A stretch of DNA of 64,000 nucleotides from Pezizomycotina sp. ARF18 (lineage: Eukaryota > Ascomycota). The notes below the pieces were generated by a model. It searched no databases, was not told the origin of the DNA, and saw only the letters and a program-made list of their open reading frames with translations. Shown here piece after piece: positions 27,831-62,298 of the stretch (its first letter is position 1; each line of letters begins with the position of its first letter). The stretch lies in assembly GCA_002224055.1 (NCBI GenBank), contig AZLU01000036.1, forward strand, positions 1 through 64,000. The letters run 5' to 3'. A program made the translations under genes and the position numbers.

Positions 27831-30800
27831 ATGTCCCAGCCGCTTGAACCACCGGCTCGTACTGCAGCGGCAATTCAAAATGACCAAAATTTGGCGGACC
27901 GCAATTCCAGCCGCCGTTTTAAGAGGGTGCGCTGCCAAAATGTCGGAAAGACGGAAAAGCATGCAAGTATAACGGAGGGTGCTAAAAAGTTCGGAAGAAT
28001 GGGAAGCTTTACTGCCGCAGGATAGAAAGTGCGACCGATGTAAAAATACCTTTAAAACTCACGTCAAGGAGGCGACGATTTTGCGTCGATTTGTCAGAAC
28101 CACCCTCCCTCCCTCGCTGAATATGATATTTGGCGTAATTTATCGGCACTGCAATCACCGCCGAAGTCACGCGCACGCATCTCTTCAAAAGACTGGAACA
28201 ACACGATCAAACTATCGTAGAACTTCGCCATGAGAGACGAACAGCGGAGGAGATACAGGAGATTCTAAAAAGAGATGCCGGGTTTACCGTCAGGTAGGAA
28301 CACAAGCGATATGGACGTGGCGAAAAAGACGTTTATGGTTCTATAACTAACAATTTATGATGAGTCTCTCCGCGCTAAAAAAACGGCTGGCTGATCTCGC
28401 ACCTCTGCGACCGCACCATGCCCGTGAGCGAGCGGGACCGAAGCGCTTGCGCTCGAGTAGCCCCGACAACGAAGTGAGTGAAGCCTCAACGGGCTTTGCA
28501 AGCAAACGGATGAAGGACGGAGAACCAGAGTCCATAATCACAACTGACGATGGTGCGTCCGCTGGCGTACATGGTCTTGACGCCCTTACCGTCAAAGCAA
28601 CGTCGTTAATCCTTCCGAGACTTCCGAGCTTTCCTATGCGAACCAACATAAACTCAATCGATAACCCGAACGTAAGCGATATCGGTGCGGTGCCTGTCGA
28701 AGCCTCTGAGGGCAGGTTTAGCGGCTTCAGTACTGAGAAGCATCAGAGGAAGCAGTCGCATTCAGAATCTGAAAGAGTACGCGATGAACATTTTGCTTTA
28801 AAGAACCAATAAACGAAAATTTTAAGAAAAGTTACTAACGTTCTGATAGACTGGGGCGAGACACCCGAAATTCCAAGTGACGGGATCAGGAAAGGAATCG
28901 GGGAGCGTCCGTTGCTCCTGCAGCGCCTATAGCAGACATGTCTCAGTCTCACGAGGAAAGAACCCGATTACTCACGATGCATCATCTTCTCGTCGTATTG
29001 CAAGTGTAGAAGGGCATCATACAGGCGACGAAAATTCTTATTTGATAAAGCTGCCATCTATCAGAATTCAAGAGCCACCATCACCGGACTCTGGTTTAAC
29101 AGCGCTACATATGGCTGCGAGGTTCGGACAAGCGCGAGTTGTCCAGCGCTTAGCTGAACATAGTCGACAGCTTCTGAACCAGACTACCAAGCACGGCCGA
29201 ACGGCGCTTCACTTTGCTGTAGATGAAAATCAGGAAGAGGTGGTACGGCGCCTCCTACAATTACCGGAGATTAACCCAGCGATAGCAGACGAAAGCGGTT
29301 GGACGCCGCTTCACATAGCGTGCCGGACGGGTAATCTTAATATCGCGTCTCTCCTCCTTAGAGCTGGCGAAAACCCCTATTCGGATACAGTGATGATAAG
29401 CTCTTTAAATGTCGCCATCGCATTCGACCAACATGACGCATTTGATTTTCTATTCAAAACGCTACAGACACGGAACCCGCCAGTGGATTGGACAAAAAGT
29501 CGGCCTTGGACCTCCCTGCATGAAGCGGCAAGAAGAAACAACCCACGCATTGCGAAGACTCTGATTCTCGCTGGTGCCAATGTTAATTACTACTATACCC
29601 GAATGCAAGAAAAGATTACCCCGCTTCATGTGTCATTGAAATTGTTCTGCAAATATGGAAACCATTCGAGGCGAGAGATGGACTCTTTGGTACCCCCGAT
29701 TATTTCCCTCTTCCTTTTGTATGGCGCAGTTGTCAACGACCGGTTTTCGGATGGACGCAATGCTTTGCACATAGCGGCGAGATGGAATCTCTATGGAATT
29801 CTGCAACTGTTTCTCGAAAAATGCAAGTTACACGATATACTGGCTCAAGATTGTCGCAATTTGACGCCAATACATTGGGCAGCCTACGCTAATAGCGTCA
29901 ACTGTATTGATCTTTTGGTTGAGGCTGAAGCCAAAAATGGCGGGACGTTGTCGCAATTGGAGATGTGCAGTCAATCCGGGCATACTGCTTTGCATCTGGC
30001 AACATTACGCAACAATCTTGAAGCTGTACGTTGTCTGATACGGCGTGGCGCAAAAATCGATACCCCGATGACCATGGGCAAACATCGCTAGTGCTGGCGA
30101 TAAGAGGAGGCTTCAAGGCTGCCGCCGTCTGTTTAATTAATGCCGGCGCTGACGTTAATGCACGGGATAAACAAGGTCGAACCCTCTAATTTGGGCGATC
30201 TTACGGGAATCGCAAGCTACATTACCTGGAACCAGAGAGAAAACCCAGCGCTTTTCCAGACATGACCAAACTCAAGAAGATATAGACGATATTGTAGATC
30301 TCCTTATTGGGGAAGGAGCAGATCTGAGCGCTACGTCCGAAGAAAACCCCGCCGGGAAACCCACGGCTGAACTGGCAGTACCTAAGTTCGACGACGATTG
30401 GCTGAATTCATCTTTGAGGATGATGTTTACGAATTTGTCGAGTGCATTAATCCCGATGATAGTTCGTCTGAGGGTGCCCTTATGATCAAATCTCACCGAC
30501 ACCGGCCGTCAACGCTTCTAATACATCGAACAAAACTCACGCTGATCTGAATCCAACCCCTTTCAACCCAGGCCAGCTATCGAAAGAGCAACCTCACGCG
30601 AATACTATAATTGGCAACCCAGCCACTATGGGACCATCTTTGGGGTTTGTAATGGCCCGATGCTCTGGCGGATACATCCCAAGGTTCACGCGAAGGCGAC
30701 CACACGCCAGCCGTGCCGGTTTGCGCAGGCTGTCAATTTCCTGTATCTCATTGCACCTATCAGGGAAAGGCTTGGGCTACTGCCAATCCTCCCGTAGGAG

Positions 30801-31746: not shown

Positions 31747-33014
31747 CTCAGGCCTTTCGCACAAGTCGCCCATATTATGAACCAATGAGCCACAGGATCG
31801 GTTTATTTTGAGATAGCTTCGCGCATTGCCACCATTGATGGGAAGCTGCGGAATCCGTCGGCGAGTAGATTCTCGCAGAGAATCTCTAGACCTATAGAGC
31901 GTTCAAAAAAAACTGTGTTTTATCAGCCATTATTTCGTCTGATCATTTTCTTGCTGTGCATCTCAAAATCCTCCTCGCCACCTCTTCGATGATATTTACT
32001 TTATTATATTGATATTATCAGTCATTACAAGTCAAACCTTTTTTTCTTCGCCTCCCGTAGCTAAAATTCGGTATCTGCTCCTCCGCTTCTATCCCTCCAA
32101 AATCATCACCGCATTCTTATCATGACCCCAAGTTCCGCTACCGTTCACCTGCCCTGCAATGTATATCCTTGCCATTGATCATGAAACAACATCCACCACC
32201 CCTATAAGCGTTTACTCAAAGCGTTTAGTTCTTCTGCATATTCCGCTCGGTGTAACTCGGCTGTTATTCTGTCTGACTGTCTTTCTAGTTCGTTGAATGT
32301 TTGGGTGCGTCTTCCTTGGCTAATTTGCTAAACGACTTTGTACTCAATTATACCAATAGATTTCTAACACCTATATACCAAAAGGCAGTTCCAAATTGAA
32401 TTCAGGAAGATTATATATAATTTGTGGCAAAGAATAGTATTCTCCCGGGACGGAAGAAATAAGGCAAAAGCCTGAACAGCAAAAAAGCACGGATGAATGA
32501 ACGTCTACACACATATTCGTGACAATATAGTATGCATATGTACTTATCGTATTTCCTAACAGGAATTTAGTTAAAACACACAAGGTCATCGGTTCAAGGT
32601 CTAAAGGAAATCCATTAAGGGATATCTATACTTATAGGAAAACATTCGATTACTAGCGTTAGCGGAAGCGCCTTATAGCTTCGTAACAAAACTTAATCGC
32701 AATGATCAGAAGCTCTTGCCATGGAGGCTCTATAGAAACATTATTTGCCCTTATTGACGTTCGATTTACCAGTAAGCTTCAGTATTGTCTTGCTGAGACT
32801 AGTAGACGTGTCTTAAATCCTCAGCAAGCCCTAAGCCCTGAGCCAGTAAATGCCTCAAAGAAGCTCGTGGAATCCCCCGAAAAAGCAAACGAAGAAATCA
32901 ATAGCTCCTATTGGCCAGGAGAGCTTAGAGGGCTTAGGGCTTAGGTTTGCCAAGTGAAAACTTTCAAAGCGAAAAAAAATTTTTTTGTTGATCTGAGCCA
33001 CCAGTCAATTTTAC
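31747..33014. other. No supported gene; small inverted repeat
   Basis: AT-rich spacer. A 14-bp inverted repeat (AAGCCCTAAGCCCT at about 32826-32839 and its complement at 32930-32943) sits inside a short open frame (32702-32944) that is otherwise unrecognisable. The TTAGGG-like words are not tandem enough to be telomeric. Confidence 0.5.
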
Positions 33015-33024
33015 TATAAATATA
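33015..33024 (+). promoter_or_regulatory. TATA-like element upstream of U2 snRNA
   Basis: TATAAATATA ends about 47 bp before the inferred U2 5' end at about 33071. Fungal U2 is made by RNA polymerase II, so a TATA-like element here fits. The role is inferred from position only. Confidence 0.45.
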
Positions 33025-33070
33025 GCCTCCCCCCACCATCCTTTTAGAATTTTTTTTCCCTTTCTTCTCC

Positions 33071-33320
33071 AGCTCTCTTTGCCTTTTGGCTTAGATCAAG
33101 TGTAGTATCTGTTCTTTTCAGGTAAGCATCACCACCACCACCATGTCTTTCTGAATGATTATATATAGCCTTTTCAGAGATATGTGCTAACCATACCCCA
33201 GTTTAATCTCTGAAACACCATACGTTGGGTAATCAAGATTAATCTTGTTTTTGGATCTCGGTCGTTTGGCTCTGGGCTTGCCATCCTTACGACCACAGTG
33301 GCCTTGTTATTGCACTGTCT
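33071..33320 (+). ncRNA. U2 spliceosomal snRNA gene, interrupted by an 80-nt intron
   Basis: U2 pairs with the intron branch site during pre-mRNA splicing. Exon 1 (about 33071-33121) reads CTCTTTGCCTTTTGGCTTAG then ATCAAGTGTAGTATCTGTTC, matching the near-invariant U2 5' domain; the branch-site-pairing GTAGTA is at 33102-33107. The exon stops at TTTTCAG. Sequence resumes at 33202 as TTTAATCTCTGAAA, exactly the expected continuation. Then come AAGATTAATCTT (stem IIb, 33235-33246), an Sm-type site (TTGTTTTTGG, 33245-33254), stem III (GGTCGT at about 33260 pairing with ACGACC at about 33288) and stem-loop IV (CAGTG 33296-33300 with CACTG 33313-33317; loop contains the ATTGCAC motif bound by U2B''-type proteins). 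The 5' and 3' ends are estimates. The intervening 80 nt is annotated separately. Confidence 0.95.
33122..33201 (+). other. Spliceosomal-type intron inside U2 snRNA
   Basis: The intron starts GTAAGC (33122), has a GCTAAC branch site at 33186-33191 (branch A about 33190) and ends CCCAG (33201), 11 nt after the branch. Removing it restores TTTTCAG/TTTAATC, the conserved stem IIa 5' arm and loop. Segment 33172-33181 (TTTCAGAGAT) is the perfect complement of exon-2 33206-33215 (ATCTCTGAAA). In the precursor this can form a 10-bp helix with the branch site and 3' splice site in the 24-nt loop. It would replace the 6-bp stem IIa of mature U2. Confidence 0.9.
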
Positions 33321-34100
33321 CAAGCGCCGCGAACCTCTTTTTCATCTCGTTTTCTTGGTTATATCCAAGAGCAAGGGGAAAAAGATGTTCTAGTGATATT
33401 TAGCTTTACTTATGTTCATTTCTGTAGTAATCATGAGCTTATGTTTTTGAGTTGACGGTTTTTACTGTATATATTTGAGTATATGGAGTACTGTCAGCTC
33501 AATAGACCCCCCAAAAAAATTTTTTTTTTTTGCAATAAGTAACTTTTCATGCGCTCTAGAAATGATAGAACCTCTAGCGACGTGATAGAATCTCTGAAAA
33601 CTTTTCGCTTTCTCTCGGTGGTCCATGAGCTACTACCGCTCTATAAAAACCAAATCCCATAGATAGTCAGGTTGAAGGGAACACAGATACGCATGCTTCT
33701 TCCTGGCGCGCATGCAGTTCACGAACTCACTGTAGCATGCATTTGCTCTGGAAGTAGTAGTCTTCTGTAGTTGAGGCTTGATCCACTTATCCCTCTCTTT
33801 TTCTATCTAAAATGTTCTAGAGGGGCAAACCCACGATAAACCACGATAACCCCGATAAACCCCCGATAACCTCCATGCGGTAATTTACGAGTATCCATTT
33901 GATTCCAACGTCCGCTTATAAAAGTTTACTATGAGCGCCGTATCAGCGTACCGTACTACGGATATTAGTCTATGAAGTCTAGATGCTATGGGTATTCTCC
34001 GCTCGCGAAGTACATTTATCGTGTGGTGCTAAAGTTTTTTCATGCCAAGACTAACCTAATTCTCACTTCGAGCTCTAATGGAAGACAGTGCTTGCTCGCC
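33321..34100. other. U2 3' region, no gene; short tandem repeat
   Basis: Homopolymer A/T runs lie at 33510-33532. At about 33832-33880 there are several imperfect tandem copies of a 'CGATAAACC/CGATAACCC' unit. Nothing else recognised. Confidence 0.5.
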
Positions 34101-58600: not shown

Positions 58601-60684
58601 GTCCATAAGAGGTAACTAATCCCTTTGACGATCGTAGTAGCTACGCCGCGAGTATTCCTTTCCACTACAATCCCGAGTCATTTCTTAAACTCATGTTGCG
58701 TTGCCCTAAGATTTATAACATTTACCGACTCACTACGACTAGAGCAAGACGAAATAAAAGATAGCGTGATAATTACTTCCGGGATATTCTCCTATTAATC
58801 TCCTTTCCAAGGGTTTGCTGGTATTCTGTAGACTGATATCACGTGTCGCGATACCCAGATCTAACAATGGCTTTGGAAAAAAAAAAGTTTGCAACGTTCA
58901 TATCAGAGAGACGCTGGCGGGAGTCATCTCAATTTCAGAAAGTGTTTGGTTTAGACTCTTTTATATAACCGGAGACAAGCTGCAGCTCGCTTGGATAGTT
59001 GCGGTCTTGATCAAACACCTGCGAATGTGGCCATGAACGGGTAGCCTTTACAGCTTTTGCAACTGAGTTTCAATCACTAGTCACGCCGAAGATTGTTTCA
59101 AGATGGAATTGAGAGGTACGGAAGATAGGATCTATGAACTCTTATTTGCAAGCTCCTGAGGTTATCATAGCCTTCCCTAATTGATCCATTTCTATCATAG
59201 AGGCGAGCGCGCATCGCGCAGATATCCGCGGTGCAAAACTTCATGAGTGCTTCGATTTATCTTCCTTGATGCTTCCATTTCGCCGGTGCGATACGATTGA
59301 AAGTCAATATCTCTTGATTTACTCACTTACGAACACTGCTACATCGTATAGCTCAAAATGAAGGCCGAAGCTTCTCGAATTTTCGTGAGCAAGCGTAAGT
59401 TATGGTTAATTGCGGTCCCATTCTATGCTTACATGACTGCTGGGAAAGTAAATGCAATGTGTATGTACGCTCGATGACTGTTTTGTGAAGTACCATTGGT
59501 AATATGGGTATTGATGACGATTAAGGCTGTCTGGGAAAAGTGTCGCATCCAATATACCTCTTGTTAAAACGGGAAATGTTGCTTAGTCTCGTAGACGGGT
59601 AATCAAATCGATCCTGGGTGGAGGGATTTTTGTTGATACGACTTATCGTACGGATAGTATATGCCGCTTATCTCGGTATGCGCTTCACGGAATCTTATCG
59701 GTTGTCGGTACGTTAGAGAGCTTAAACTCACAACACGCATGTATGAATGTTGGACTCTCTTCAGTAGTGATATGTTATAAAAAAAATAATTGTGCAAAGC
59801 CTTTTTTATATAGAAATGGAAGGTTAAGATGTTTTAAAGAAAAATGTGCAGGTTAGTGGAATATTCCCAAGTCAAATAAATGTGTTTGGAATCGCACCGC
59901 ACTGCCTTTACTAAAAAAAAAGAAGAAAAGAAAAGAAAATAAAAGAAAGGAAGAATGCTTTGTATTGACTGCTCAAATGTGAACGGAATAATGTTGAAGA
60001 TACATAGTCCGGAGCTCATTGATCGAGAGAGTATACATCCTGAAACACGGTGGTGCCCTCAGTTCTCGGTAGATAATTCATTTTATATTGGTATTATATC
60101 GCAGATGCAGACCAATAATTATTCGTACAAGGGCTATAATTGCATCTAGAGTACGCACGGAGCTCAATAGTTGATATTACGTAGCACGAAGACATTTTCA
60201 AATGTTATCGTGAGAACTTTTCTCGCACCCAGACTCTCCCGAAGGGTAGGAACTACAGCCATGAGTAAACTCCGAGAAATATCTCTCCTAAATTAATTCT
60301 TTGATTTCAAGAGTATTAAACCTTCTCGCTCACTAAGAATGAGTATTCTGAATTGAACGTGATTGACGTAAGGTATCAAATTTCAGAGTCATTGTTTCAC
60401 CTGAAAATATTAGCTGCATCCATCTTATGCTTGGTTCCACAAACCCTCCTATACATGTGGAGTCGCGAGACAAAAAAGGCTTGGCGCATGTGGGGGTTTC
60501 GGATGAGGCTGTAAGCTTGCTCGGAACTCCCTGTAGCTTTTACGCAATGTCATTGGCTTTAATATCAACGACACGCGATTTAAAGCAACACGTTGATAAT
60601 AAAGATCAGCTCCTTTCCCTCAGACCAAGGGGAAAAGCTTCACTTTCTCTAAACATTCGCTTCAACCCTCGACCGTCCTTCACG
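55676..60684. other. Gene-poor region with a diverged tandem duplication
   Basis: No supported gene over 5 kb. The frames at 57221-57496 exist on both strands and neither is convincing. The notable structure is the duplication annotated at 56980-58600. 59600-60684 is the AT-rich 5' region of the P450 gene. Confidence 0.45.
56980..58600. repeat. Diverged tandem duplication, unit about 1.0 kb
   Basis: Blocks recur in order about 1 kb apart. TCAGCTGTATCG: 56988 and 58010. GTCGTCCGC(A/G)TAT: about 57107 and 58108. TCTTCACTACACT: about 57180 and 58180. CCTGACACACC: about 57490 and 58491. ACCATCCTTA: about 57541 and 58544. Between blocks, identity is low. It is old and carries no recognised gene. 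Confidence 0.65.
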
Positions 60685-62298
60685 ATGTCGTCCTCGTCGC
60701 CTTTACAAACGATCCTAGATCAGCTTCCCGACATCGAACAGCGTCACGTAGTCCTGGCCTCCATCTTCGTCCTGATCCTCTCCCTCGTCGTCTTCACCCG
60801 CAAACCGGACTACCACCCTCCATCCTCCTCCTCGATCGCCTGCGAACCCCCACGCGCACCCTTCGGTATACCGTTCCTAAACCACACGTTCTCCTTCGGC
60901 GCGGGACCCTCGCTCTTCCTCAAGAAGATACGCTCGCAGACGAGGCATCCGCAGCCGTACACCGTCACCGTCGGCACGAATACGAAATTCTACATATTCA
61001 ACGGACCGAATGACCACTTACAAGTGCTGTGGCGTAACAGTGCGAATTTGGATTTCGCTACGTTCGCGATAAAGTTTACGCGGTGGATATTGGGTGGTAG
61101 CGAGAAGGATTACGATATCGTTTTTAGGGATTGTAATAGGCCGGGAAGTTTCATGCATGGGTGGCAGAAGATTTTCCATACGTTGCCGGAGAAGGAAGGT
61201 CCGCTGAAAACGTTGAACGAGAATGGTGTAAAAGGTTATTCTGAGCAACTTAATATACTCAAGGCGAAGGTCGAGTCACAAACTTCGGAGGGGAAAATCG
61301 ATTTTCTGGCGACGTTGAGGGAGGCTATGCTCGTCGTTATTATGGATTCGTTCTGGGGTCTTCGAAACCCGCTGCGGGAAAGCGACAGGAAGAAATTCGA
61401 AGACCAATATTTCTTATACGAAGATGAAGTAATCGGGATGGTATACTCCCCTTTTCCAGCGATAACGCATCGGAAATGTATAGCTGCACGGGAATACCTC
61501 GTGAAGCTATTCATCGATTACCTCAACGATCCGCAGCGCATGGAAGGCGCGATGGAGTTCATTCGCATACGAAAAACGCACTACGACAGTTTCAAAATCC
61601 AAGTTGACAACCACGCCAGGTCCGAAGTCGGACTCGTCTTCGCCGCGTTATCGAATACCGCACCGACGATGTTCTGGTGCGCTTACCACGCCTTCCATAA
61701 TAAAAACCTACTAGCGGAACTACGCGATGAGCTATTAGAAACAAAAGGTGTCACATACACCGCAGAGGAGGTAGTACTAAACATGACAATAATAACGAAT
61801 AAATGCCGCCTACTAAGAGCAGTATGGGACGAAGTATTACGGTACTACCAAGACGTCTTCTTCTCCAGAACAGTGCTATCCGATACAGTCGTCACGCCGT
61901 CGTTTTCTTCGGAATACGGCGGTACGAGATCGTACTTGTTAAAAAAGGGTAGCGTGGCGCAAGTACCCATGGGCGTAGTCCTCTCGGATACGCTCACGTG
62001 GGGCGACGACGCGGATAAATTCGATCCGTATAGATTTTTGGAACAGGTTAACGACCAGTCGAAGAGTAGAAACGGGAGGGACGATATGGAGAAGAGACGG
62101 GACGCGGCGTTCAAGCCGTTTGGTGGAGGGAGTACGCATTGTCCGGGGAGGTTTTTTGCGTGGACGGAGGTTAGCGGGCTTGTTGCTGGTTTGGTGGCAG
62201 TTTTTGATGTCGAGATGCCGGAGGAGAGTACATTTAAGGTTAATAGAGGGGATGGGAGCGGTGTTAGGAAGGCTACGGGGCCAGTGTGGGCGGGATGA
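60685..62298 (+). CDS. Cytochrome P450, CYP7/CYP8-like
   Basis: A haem-thiolate mono-oxygenase, probably anchored in the ER. The frame is open from 60427, but the start at 60685 (MSSSSPLQ) places the membrane anchor correctly (RHVVLASIFVLILSLVVF, residues about 25-42), followed by a Pro-rich hinge (EPPRAPFGIP). The I-helix region is VFAALSNTAPTMFWCAYHAF, the N-T-x-P-x-x-F-W pattern of CYP7/CYP8-type enzymes rather than AGxDT. The K-helix ExxR is WDEVLRYY, with DKFDPYRFL as the meander. The haem loop FKPFGGGSTHCPGRFFAWTE has the Cys ligand. Length is 537 residues, no introns. The stop at 62296-62298 comes just after PVWAG; a +1 frame continues KVRKEAEGRKVVMKW to 62345, so one G is probably missing from a GGG run and the true C-terminus is about 15 residues longer. 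Substrate unknown; CYP7/8 relatives act on sterols or lipids. Confidence 0.88.
   Translation: MSSSSPLQTILDQLPDIEQRHVVLASIFVLILSLVVFTRKPDYHPPSSSSIACEPPRAPFGIPFLNHTFSFGAGPSLFLKKIRSQTRHPQPYTVTVGTNTKFYIFNGPNDHLQVLWRNSANLDFATFAIKFTRWILGGSEKDYDIVFRDCNRPGSFMHGWQKIFHTLPEKEGPLKTLNENGVKGYSEQLNILKAKVESQTSEGKIDFLATLREAMLVVIMDSFWGLRNPLRESDRKKFEDQYFLYEDEVIGMVYSPFPAITHRKCIAAREYLVKLFIDYLNDPQRMEGAMEFIRIRKTHYDSFKIQVDNHARSEVGLVFAALSNTAPTMFWCAYHAFHNKNLLAELRDELLETKGVTYTAEEVVLNMTIITNKCRLLRAVWDEVLRYYQDVFFSRTVLSDTVVTPSFSSEYGGTRSYLLKKGSVAQVPMGVVLSDTLTWGDDADKFDPYRFLEQVNDQSKSRNGRDDMEKRRDAAFKPFGGGSTHCPGRFFAWTEVSGLVAGLVAVFDVEMPEESTFKVNRGDGSGVRKATGPVWAG

Follow-up and report, generated by a model that had tools for sequence, protein, structure and literature searches.

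Introns of the mRNA type are known from fungal genes for structured RNAs. The U2 small nuclear RNA (snRNA) gene of Rhodotorula hasegawae carries such an intron (Takahashi et al. 1993, Mol Cell Biol 13:5613, as cited in PMC2586383), and introns in U6 genes are described for fission yeast and other fungi (PMC10484740, PMC5832005). Outside the spliceosome, U3 small nucleolar RNA (snoRNA) genes of fungi contain short introns that have GT-AG borders and an RCTRAC branch site, according to Canzler, Stadler and Hertel (2017, PMC5832005), and in 8 of the 147 genomes of that survey U3 copies with and without an intron are found side by side. Here we describe a U2 snRNA gene of Pezizomycotina sp. ARF18 (assembly GCA_002224055.1), located in a 64,000-nt stretch (positions 1 to 64,000 of contig AZLU01000036.1, hereafter the window), which is split by a predicted spliceosomal-type intron of 80 nt. 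The gene is probably a functional, divergent U2 paralogue whose stem IIa loop is interrupted by an mRNA-type intron, and appears to be one of several split snRNA genes in this genome.

The U2 intron is a further case of a known phenomenon, as R. hasegawae likewise has a spliceosomal-type intron in a fungal U2 snRNA gene. In contrast to what is reported for that U2 gene, intronless U2 paralogues coexist with the interrupted copy in the genome studied here, and U4 and U6 are apparently interrupted too. The U1 and U5 genes of R. hasegawae also have introns. The predicted U6 intron belongs to the same group as the mRNA-type introns in the spliceosomal U6 genes of fission yeast and other fungi, whereas U2 and U4 are other snRNAs, and the U6 intron predicted here separates the 5' stem-loop from the ACAGAGA box. 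With fungal U3 the present genes share short GT-AG introns in a structured RNA and the presence of interrupted and intronless copies together; U3, however, acts outside the spliceosome, and its introns entail no self-reference. Neither a U4 intron nor a U2 intron in an ascomycete was found reported in the open literature, a scope that leaves most subscription papers outside. The combination of U2, U4 and U6 introns, each beside an intronless paralogue, would be new.

A profile check of the locus with the Rfam model of U2 (RF00004) confirmed the family named in a first-pass annotation of the letters. The match found with cmscan covered the full length of the model (positions 1-192) at 33069-33339 of the window and scored 105.2 bits, where the family cut-off is 46 bits. 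In the alignment 87 nt stood where the model has 7, which corresponds to an insert of 80 nt. The first-pass annotation had placed this insert at 33122-33201 and had named the motifs GTAAGC, GCTAAC and CAG; coordinates and motifs were both reproduced, with GTAAGC at 33122-33127, GCTAAC at 33186-33191 and CAG at 33199-33201. The branch A is 33190, 11 nt before the end of the intron.

In the assembly (46.4 Mb, 408 contigs) we found at least three other U2 loci above the cut-off, named C11, C84 and C68, none of which has the insert; their number is a lower bound, as only the best candidates were scored. The segment 33065-33121 of the window was identical to C11 and C84 at 57 of 57 nt and to C68 at 37 of 57 nt, without gaps. 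Exon 2 was identical at 85 and 84 of 130 positions to C11 and C84, respectively (65%), and the U2 score of the window copy was below those of C11 and C84 and above that of C68. Rejoining 33121 to 33202 recovers the sequence of the paralogues, with C11 and C84 aligning straight across the junction and C68 with one extra base nearby. As exon joining restores the paralogue sequence, we infer that the 80 nt are removed from the U2 transcript. The signals at the borders and the insert-free paralogues together support a spliceosomal-type intron at the U2 site where it had been proposed. Of the hallmarks of U2, the window copy has GUAGUA, the Sm site, stem I and stems III and IV. Stem IIa of the joined exons forms 6 bp, but in the local fold only, and the helix of stem IV is preserved in the alignment although its inner part is unlike that of C11. 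In public data, a 28-base piece of U2 matched neither prokaryote genomes nor viral contigs. A 21-base piece gave five matches, in three contigs labelled as prokaryote metagenome-assembled genomes, and none in viral contigs; four of the five continue as U2 across the site without an insert, and the fifth diverges just before it.

The signals of the insert are expected by chance at a rate of about 1e-4 or less. When all 127,814 segments of 80 nt on both strands of the window were tested for a GTRNG start, a YAG end and an RCTRAY motif whose branch A is 6-36 nt away from that end, three passed, the real insert among them. Twelve passed when any of four register shifts was allowed, which was done because of a three-base CAG ambiguity at the exon junction. 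With its 80 nt and a branch A 11 nt from the end, the insert also fits published fungal ranges, which for U3 introns are given as an RCTRAY branch site, a distance of 6-36 nt between branch point and acceptor, and 92 nt as the average length (PMC5832005). Five introns of actin-family genes of the same genome, chosen by eye, were 109, 99, 77, 69 and 50 nt long. They start with GTATGT, GTAAGT, GTATGG, GTATTT and GTACGT, all finish with CAG, and have CTAAT (three), CTAAC or CTGAT as branch site; the U2 intron resembles them. The actin-family genes themselves (actin-, Arp2- and Arp4-like by eye) contain several single-base frame breaks in conserved reading frames. Signature scans over about 120 kb gave 22 matches with a loose test, fewer than the simulated mean of 34.4, and 21 and 3 matches with stricter tests, compared with 13.4 and 2.2 in the simulations. 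On these numbers such scans are uninformative alone, and the case for an intron rests on the exact borders. As to its source, a multicopy introner was considered and rejected: a genome search with the U2 intron, which ignores simple repeats and very common words, matched the intron itself alone.

Additionally, predicted introns were identified in U4 and U6 genes, in this case read by eye against the paralogues and not by a blind test. At least three U4 matches are present, all on contig C4, the third of them under the family cut-off. Two of the genes carry spliceosomal-type inserts, at two different sites (locus C4:187001-193500), and the Rfam matches to both begin within the inserts; the U4 gene at C4:190443 (+ strand) has no insert. 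U6 gave at least two matches, one with a predicted intron and one without. In the interrupted U6 (C4:70001-74000) the Rfam match starts inside the intron, and upstream of the match there is a perfect 5-bp hairpin of the U6 5' type, which begins 29 nt past the start of a TATATA box. Each of the U4 and U6 introns has a paralogue that lacks it. No insert was seen in U1 (two matches, both under the cut-off) or in the single U5 match (C6:90898-91013); a second U5 gene may have been overlooked.

Features of the interrupted U2 gene (window coordinates) and predicted introns of the U4 and U6 genes (contig coordinates)
Feature	Position	Strand	Remarks
TTAGGGC-type upstream element GGGCTTAGGGCTTAGG	32930..32945	+	seen by eye
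snRNA promoter element TGATCTGAGCCA	32989..33000	+	pattern search
TATA box CTATAAAT	33014..33021	+	identical in U2 C11, U2 C84, both U1 and U4 C4:188388
U2 exon 1	33071..33121	+	stem I, GTAGTA and 5' arm of stem IIa; RF00004
Branch-site recognition GTAGTA in U2 exon 1	33102-33107	+	
5' arm of stem IIa, exon 1	33116-33121	+	
Spliceosomal-type intron (predicted), 80 nt	33122..33201	+	missing from three paralogous loci
Intronic TTTCAGAGAT	33172..33181	+	exact complement of exon-2 33206-33215
U2 exon 2	33202..33331	+	stem IIa loop and 3' arm, weak stem IIb, Sm site, stems III and IV; RF00004, local folds; 3' end (33331) approximate
3' arm of stem IIa, exon 2	33210-33215	+	
Sm-site-like TTGTTTTTGG	33245..33254	+	aligns with TTGTTTTTAG of C11 and C84
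Stem-loop III	33260..33294	+	outer helix GGTCGT/ACGACC, 6 pairs; -14.4 kcal/mol folded alone
Stem-loop IV	33298..33330	+	-11.3 kcal/mol folded alone
3' hairpin TCTTGG-TTATAT-CCAAGA	33353..33370	+	by eye; behind nine U1/U2/U4 genes
U4 intron (predicted), 61 nt	C4:188401-188461	+	GTGAGT, GCTAAC (A 9 nt from end), TAG; directly after AUCCUAAUGCAGG
U4 intron (predicted), 79 nt	C4:192508-192430	-	GTAAGT, GCTAAC 17 nt from end, AAG; in loop of 5' stem-loop
U6 intron (predicted), 76 nt	C4:72393-72318	-	GTAAGT, TCTAAT, TAG; between 5' stem-loop and ACAGAGA box

Upstream of the window U2 we identified the pair TGATCTGAG and CTATAAAT, which in this exact form precedes two U1 and three U2 genes. The pattern TGATNTGAG plus CTATAAAT had eight matches in 46 Mb, and five of these precede snRNA genes (U1, n = 2; U2, n = 3, window copy included); a control pattern gave 0 forward matches and 1 reverse match. 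No believable Rfam match was found at the remaining three. The exact pattern was not found before U2 C68, the three U4 genes or the U5 match. By eye, the pair exists in looser versions at U2 C68 and at the three U4 genes, with the TATA variant CTATAAAA in U2 C68 and CTATATAA in the two U4 genes other than that at C4:188388; before the U5 match neither element was seen, and the 3' hairpin was also not observed at this gene. TTAGGG/CCCTAA-type repeats in either orientation were seen by eye in the upstream regions of two U2 paralogues (C11 and C68), the two U1 genes and the two U4 genes with predicted introns. U2 C84 has a single GCCCTAAG only, further upstream, and the U4 gene at C4:190443 has no clear repeat. 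The TTAGGGC repeats upstream of the window U2 and several snRNA genes look like sites for telomere-type factors; Tbf1 is present at snoRNA promoters of yeast.

The hairpin downstream of the window U2 was identified by eye after nine U1, U2 and U4 genes in all. Across these, 53 of 54 pair cells were standard, and both partners had changed in two of the five inner pairs, in a comparison that used manually entered arms and had no shuffle control. One of these two pairs is T-A or A-T, and the innermost is G-C, G-T or A-T. A search with the hairpin pattern gave nine matches, five of them at known U1, U2 or U4 genes, compared with eight in the control, so that the pattern alone is not specific. The hairpin is perhaps a fungal signal for 3'-end formation or termination of snRNAs. 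A GAAGAA-like stretch often comes after it in the nine genes.

That the window copy is functional is supported by its promoter elements and 3' hairpin, by the identity of exon 1 in spite of an exon 2 at 65%, and by the folding of stems III and IV. As the shared elements suggest, RNA polymerase II would transcribe the gene from a promoter of the U1/U2 type. The major spliceosome, equipped with U2 from the intronless genes, would then remove the 80 nt, and after joining stem IIa would form, leading to normal U2 and to assembly of the U2 small nuclear ribonucleoprotein. Introns would have been gained in several snRNA genes, namely in two U4 genes at different sites and in one U6 gene besides the window U2. 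The presence of intronless copies makes such introns tolerable and breaks the self-dependence; interrupted copies would add snRNA only once splicing already works.

A number of observations weigh against a functional copy. When the whole joined window RNA is folded, its minimum-energy structure is without stem IIa, and the same holds for C11 and C84. Local folding gives a stem IIb of 3 bp, compared with 6 in C11, 4 in C84 and 5 in C68, and most of the stem IIb of the window copy is non-standard in the register of Rfam. In the same register, stems III and IV together contain eight non-standard pairs, compared with five each in C11, C84 and C68, as counted by hand from the alignment marks. The AAG acceptor of the 79-nt U4 intron and the TCTAAT branch site of the U6 intron are both off the strict consensus, TCTAAT not being of the RCTRAY form. 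Gene conversion of the 5' part could be another source of the identity of exon 1 with C11 and C84. The assembly also seems to carry single-base indels, as judged from translations read by eye; with such errors possible, the weak stem IIb may or may not be real.

Several of these points would fit a dying U2 pseudogene, in which the insertion disabled the window copy, all U2 comes from the intronless copies, and the signals in the insert are incidental or have fallen out of use. The three intronless U2 loci, the weak stem IIb, the eight non-standard pairs against five and a U2 score under those of C11 and C84, though over that of C68, are consistent with such decay. Against decay stand an exon 1 that is identical at 57 of 57 nt while exon 2 has diverged to 65%, stems III and IV that fold well in their own register, the retained promoter elements and 3' hairpin, and full intron signals at the exact borders of the insert, and the same pattern is met again in U4 and U6 genes. 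We regard a pseudogene as unlikely. The first-pass annotation had taken an intact intronless U2 elsewhere, with the window copy silent, as the finding that would speak against its interpretation. Intronless copies were indeed present, whereas the promoter elements, the 3' hairpin and the paired stems argue, at the level of sequence, against a silent window copy.

It is improbable, but could be true beside a functional interrupted copy, that the intron acts as a regulatory switch. The intronic TTTCAGAGAT would displace exon 1 as the pairing partner of exon 2 and loop out the branch point and the 3' site, and splicing would compete with the formation of stem IIa. The complement is exact over 10 nt, an arm of at least 10 occurred in only 3 of 300 random 118-nt segments, and the pairing is present in a local fold of 61 nt; it was absent, however, from the minimum-energy fold of 104 nt (z-score -1.25) and from that of the whole unspliced RNA. 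Least tenable is the view of the first-pass annotation that the product is needed for removal of its own intron, so that the U2 level would be governed by this self-dependence: the intron is there and U2 is required for the removal of every intron of this type, but three insert-free U2 loci, two of them with an identical 57-nt 5' region, lead us to reject strict self-dependence, and this explanation is most improbable.

We also compared the pairing of U4 with U6. The intronless U4 starts with AUCCUUUUGCAGGGG and pairs unbroken with the intronless U6, which reads CCCCUGCAAAAGGAU; AUCCUAAUGCAGG is the version in both intron-bearing U4 genes, and CCCCUGCAUUAAGGAU that in the intron-bearing U6. 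According to predicted duplex energies, obtained without a shuffle control, the intronless U4 reaches -30.1 kcal/mol with the intronless U6 and -25.3 with the intron-bearing U6, and the two intron-bearing U4s reach -27.1 and -22.7 kcal/mol with the U6 of their own set and -24.8 and -20.4 with the other. From the side of U4, all three genes thus favoured the U6 of their own set, with margins of 4.8, 2.3 and 2.3 kcal/mol. U4 and U6 seem to have co-varied, with two matching variants of stem II that suggest two U4/U6 pairs in one genome. A tentative reading, which we hold to be rather unlikely, is that the genome contains two overlapping sets of snRNAs, an intronless starter set and a dependent, intron-bearing set (the window U2, two U4 and one U6) whose maturation would require a spliceosome already at work, and that U4 and U6 of the two sets drifted apart with matching changes. 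The intron-bearing U6 is predicted to pair best with one of the intron-bearing U4s (-27.1). Its next best partner is the intronless U4 (-25.3), ahead of the other intron-bearing U4 (-22.7), which counts against two sets. In U2-U6 helix II a 5' end of the C11 type, which the window copy has too, gave -13.8 and -13.1 and did not separate the sets. For these reasons, and because three U4 and two U6 genes are few and an extra A in U6 may be an assembly error, our confidence in two sets is low. If they existed, splicing capacity would promote its own increase, and one nucleus could house U4/U6 pairs that are in part orthogonal.

Introns in snRNA genes have been treated as evidence on the origin of introns, with reverse splicing put forward for the U6 gene of fission yeast (PMC10484740). 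A single genome with predicted U2, U4 and U6 introns and intronless paralogues would provide repeated gains together with their empty-site controls, and would make it possible to test for limiting or regulatory effects of snRNA introns on the splicing machinery. If the introns are real, part of the splicing machinery would itself need splicing by the rest.

Among the other RNAs of this genome, a U3 snoRNA candidate under the family cut-off was found at C245:27398-27713. It may contain an intron of the known kind, which is present in the vast majority of the Pezizomycotina surveyed in PMC5832005. In the window, Pfam matches identified genes for an ankyrin-repeat protein and a cytochrome P450 at 28850-30091 and 60367-62298, respectively.
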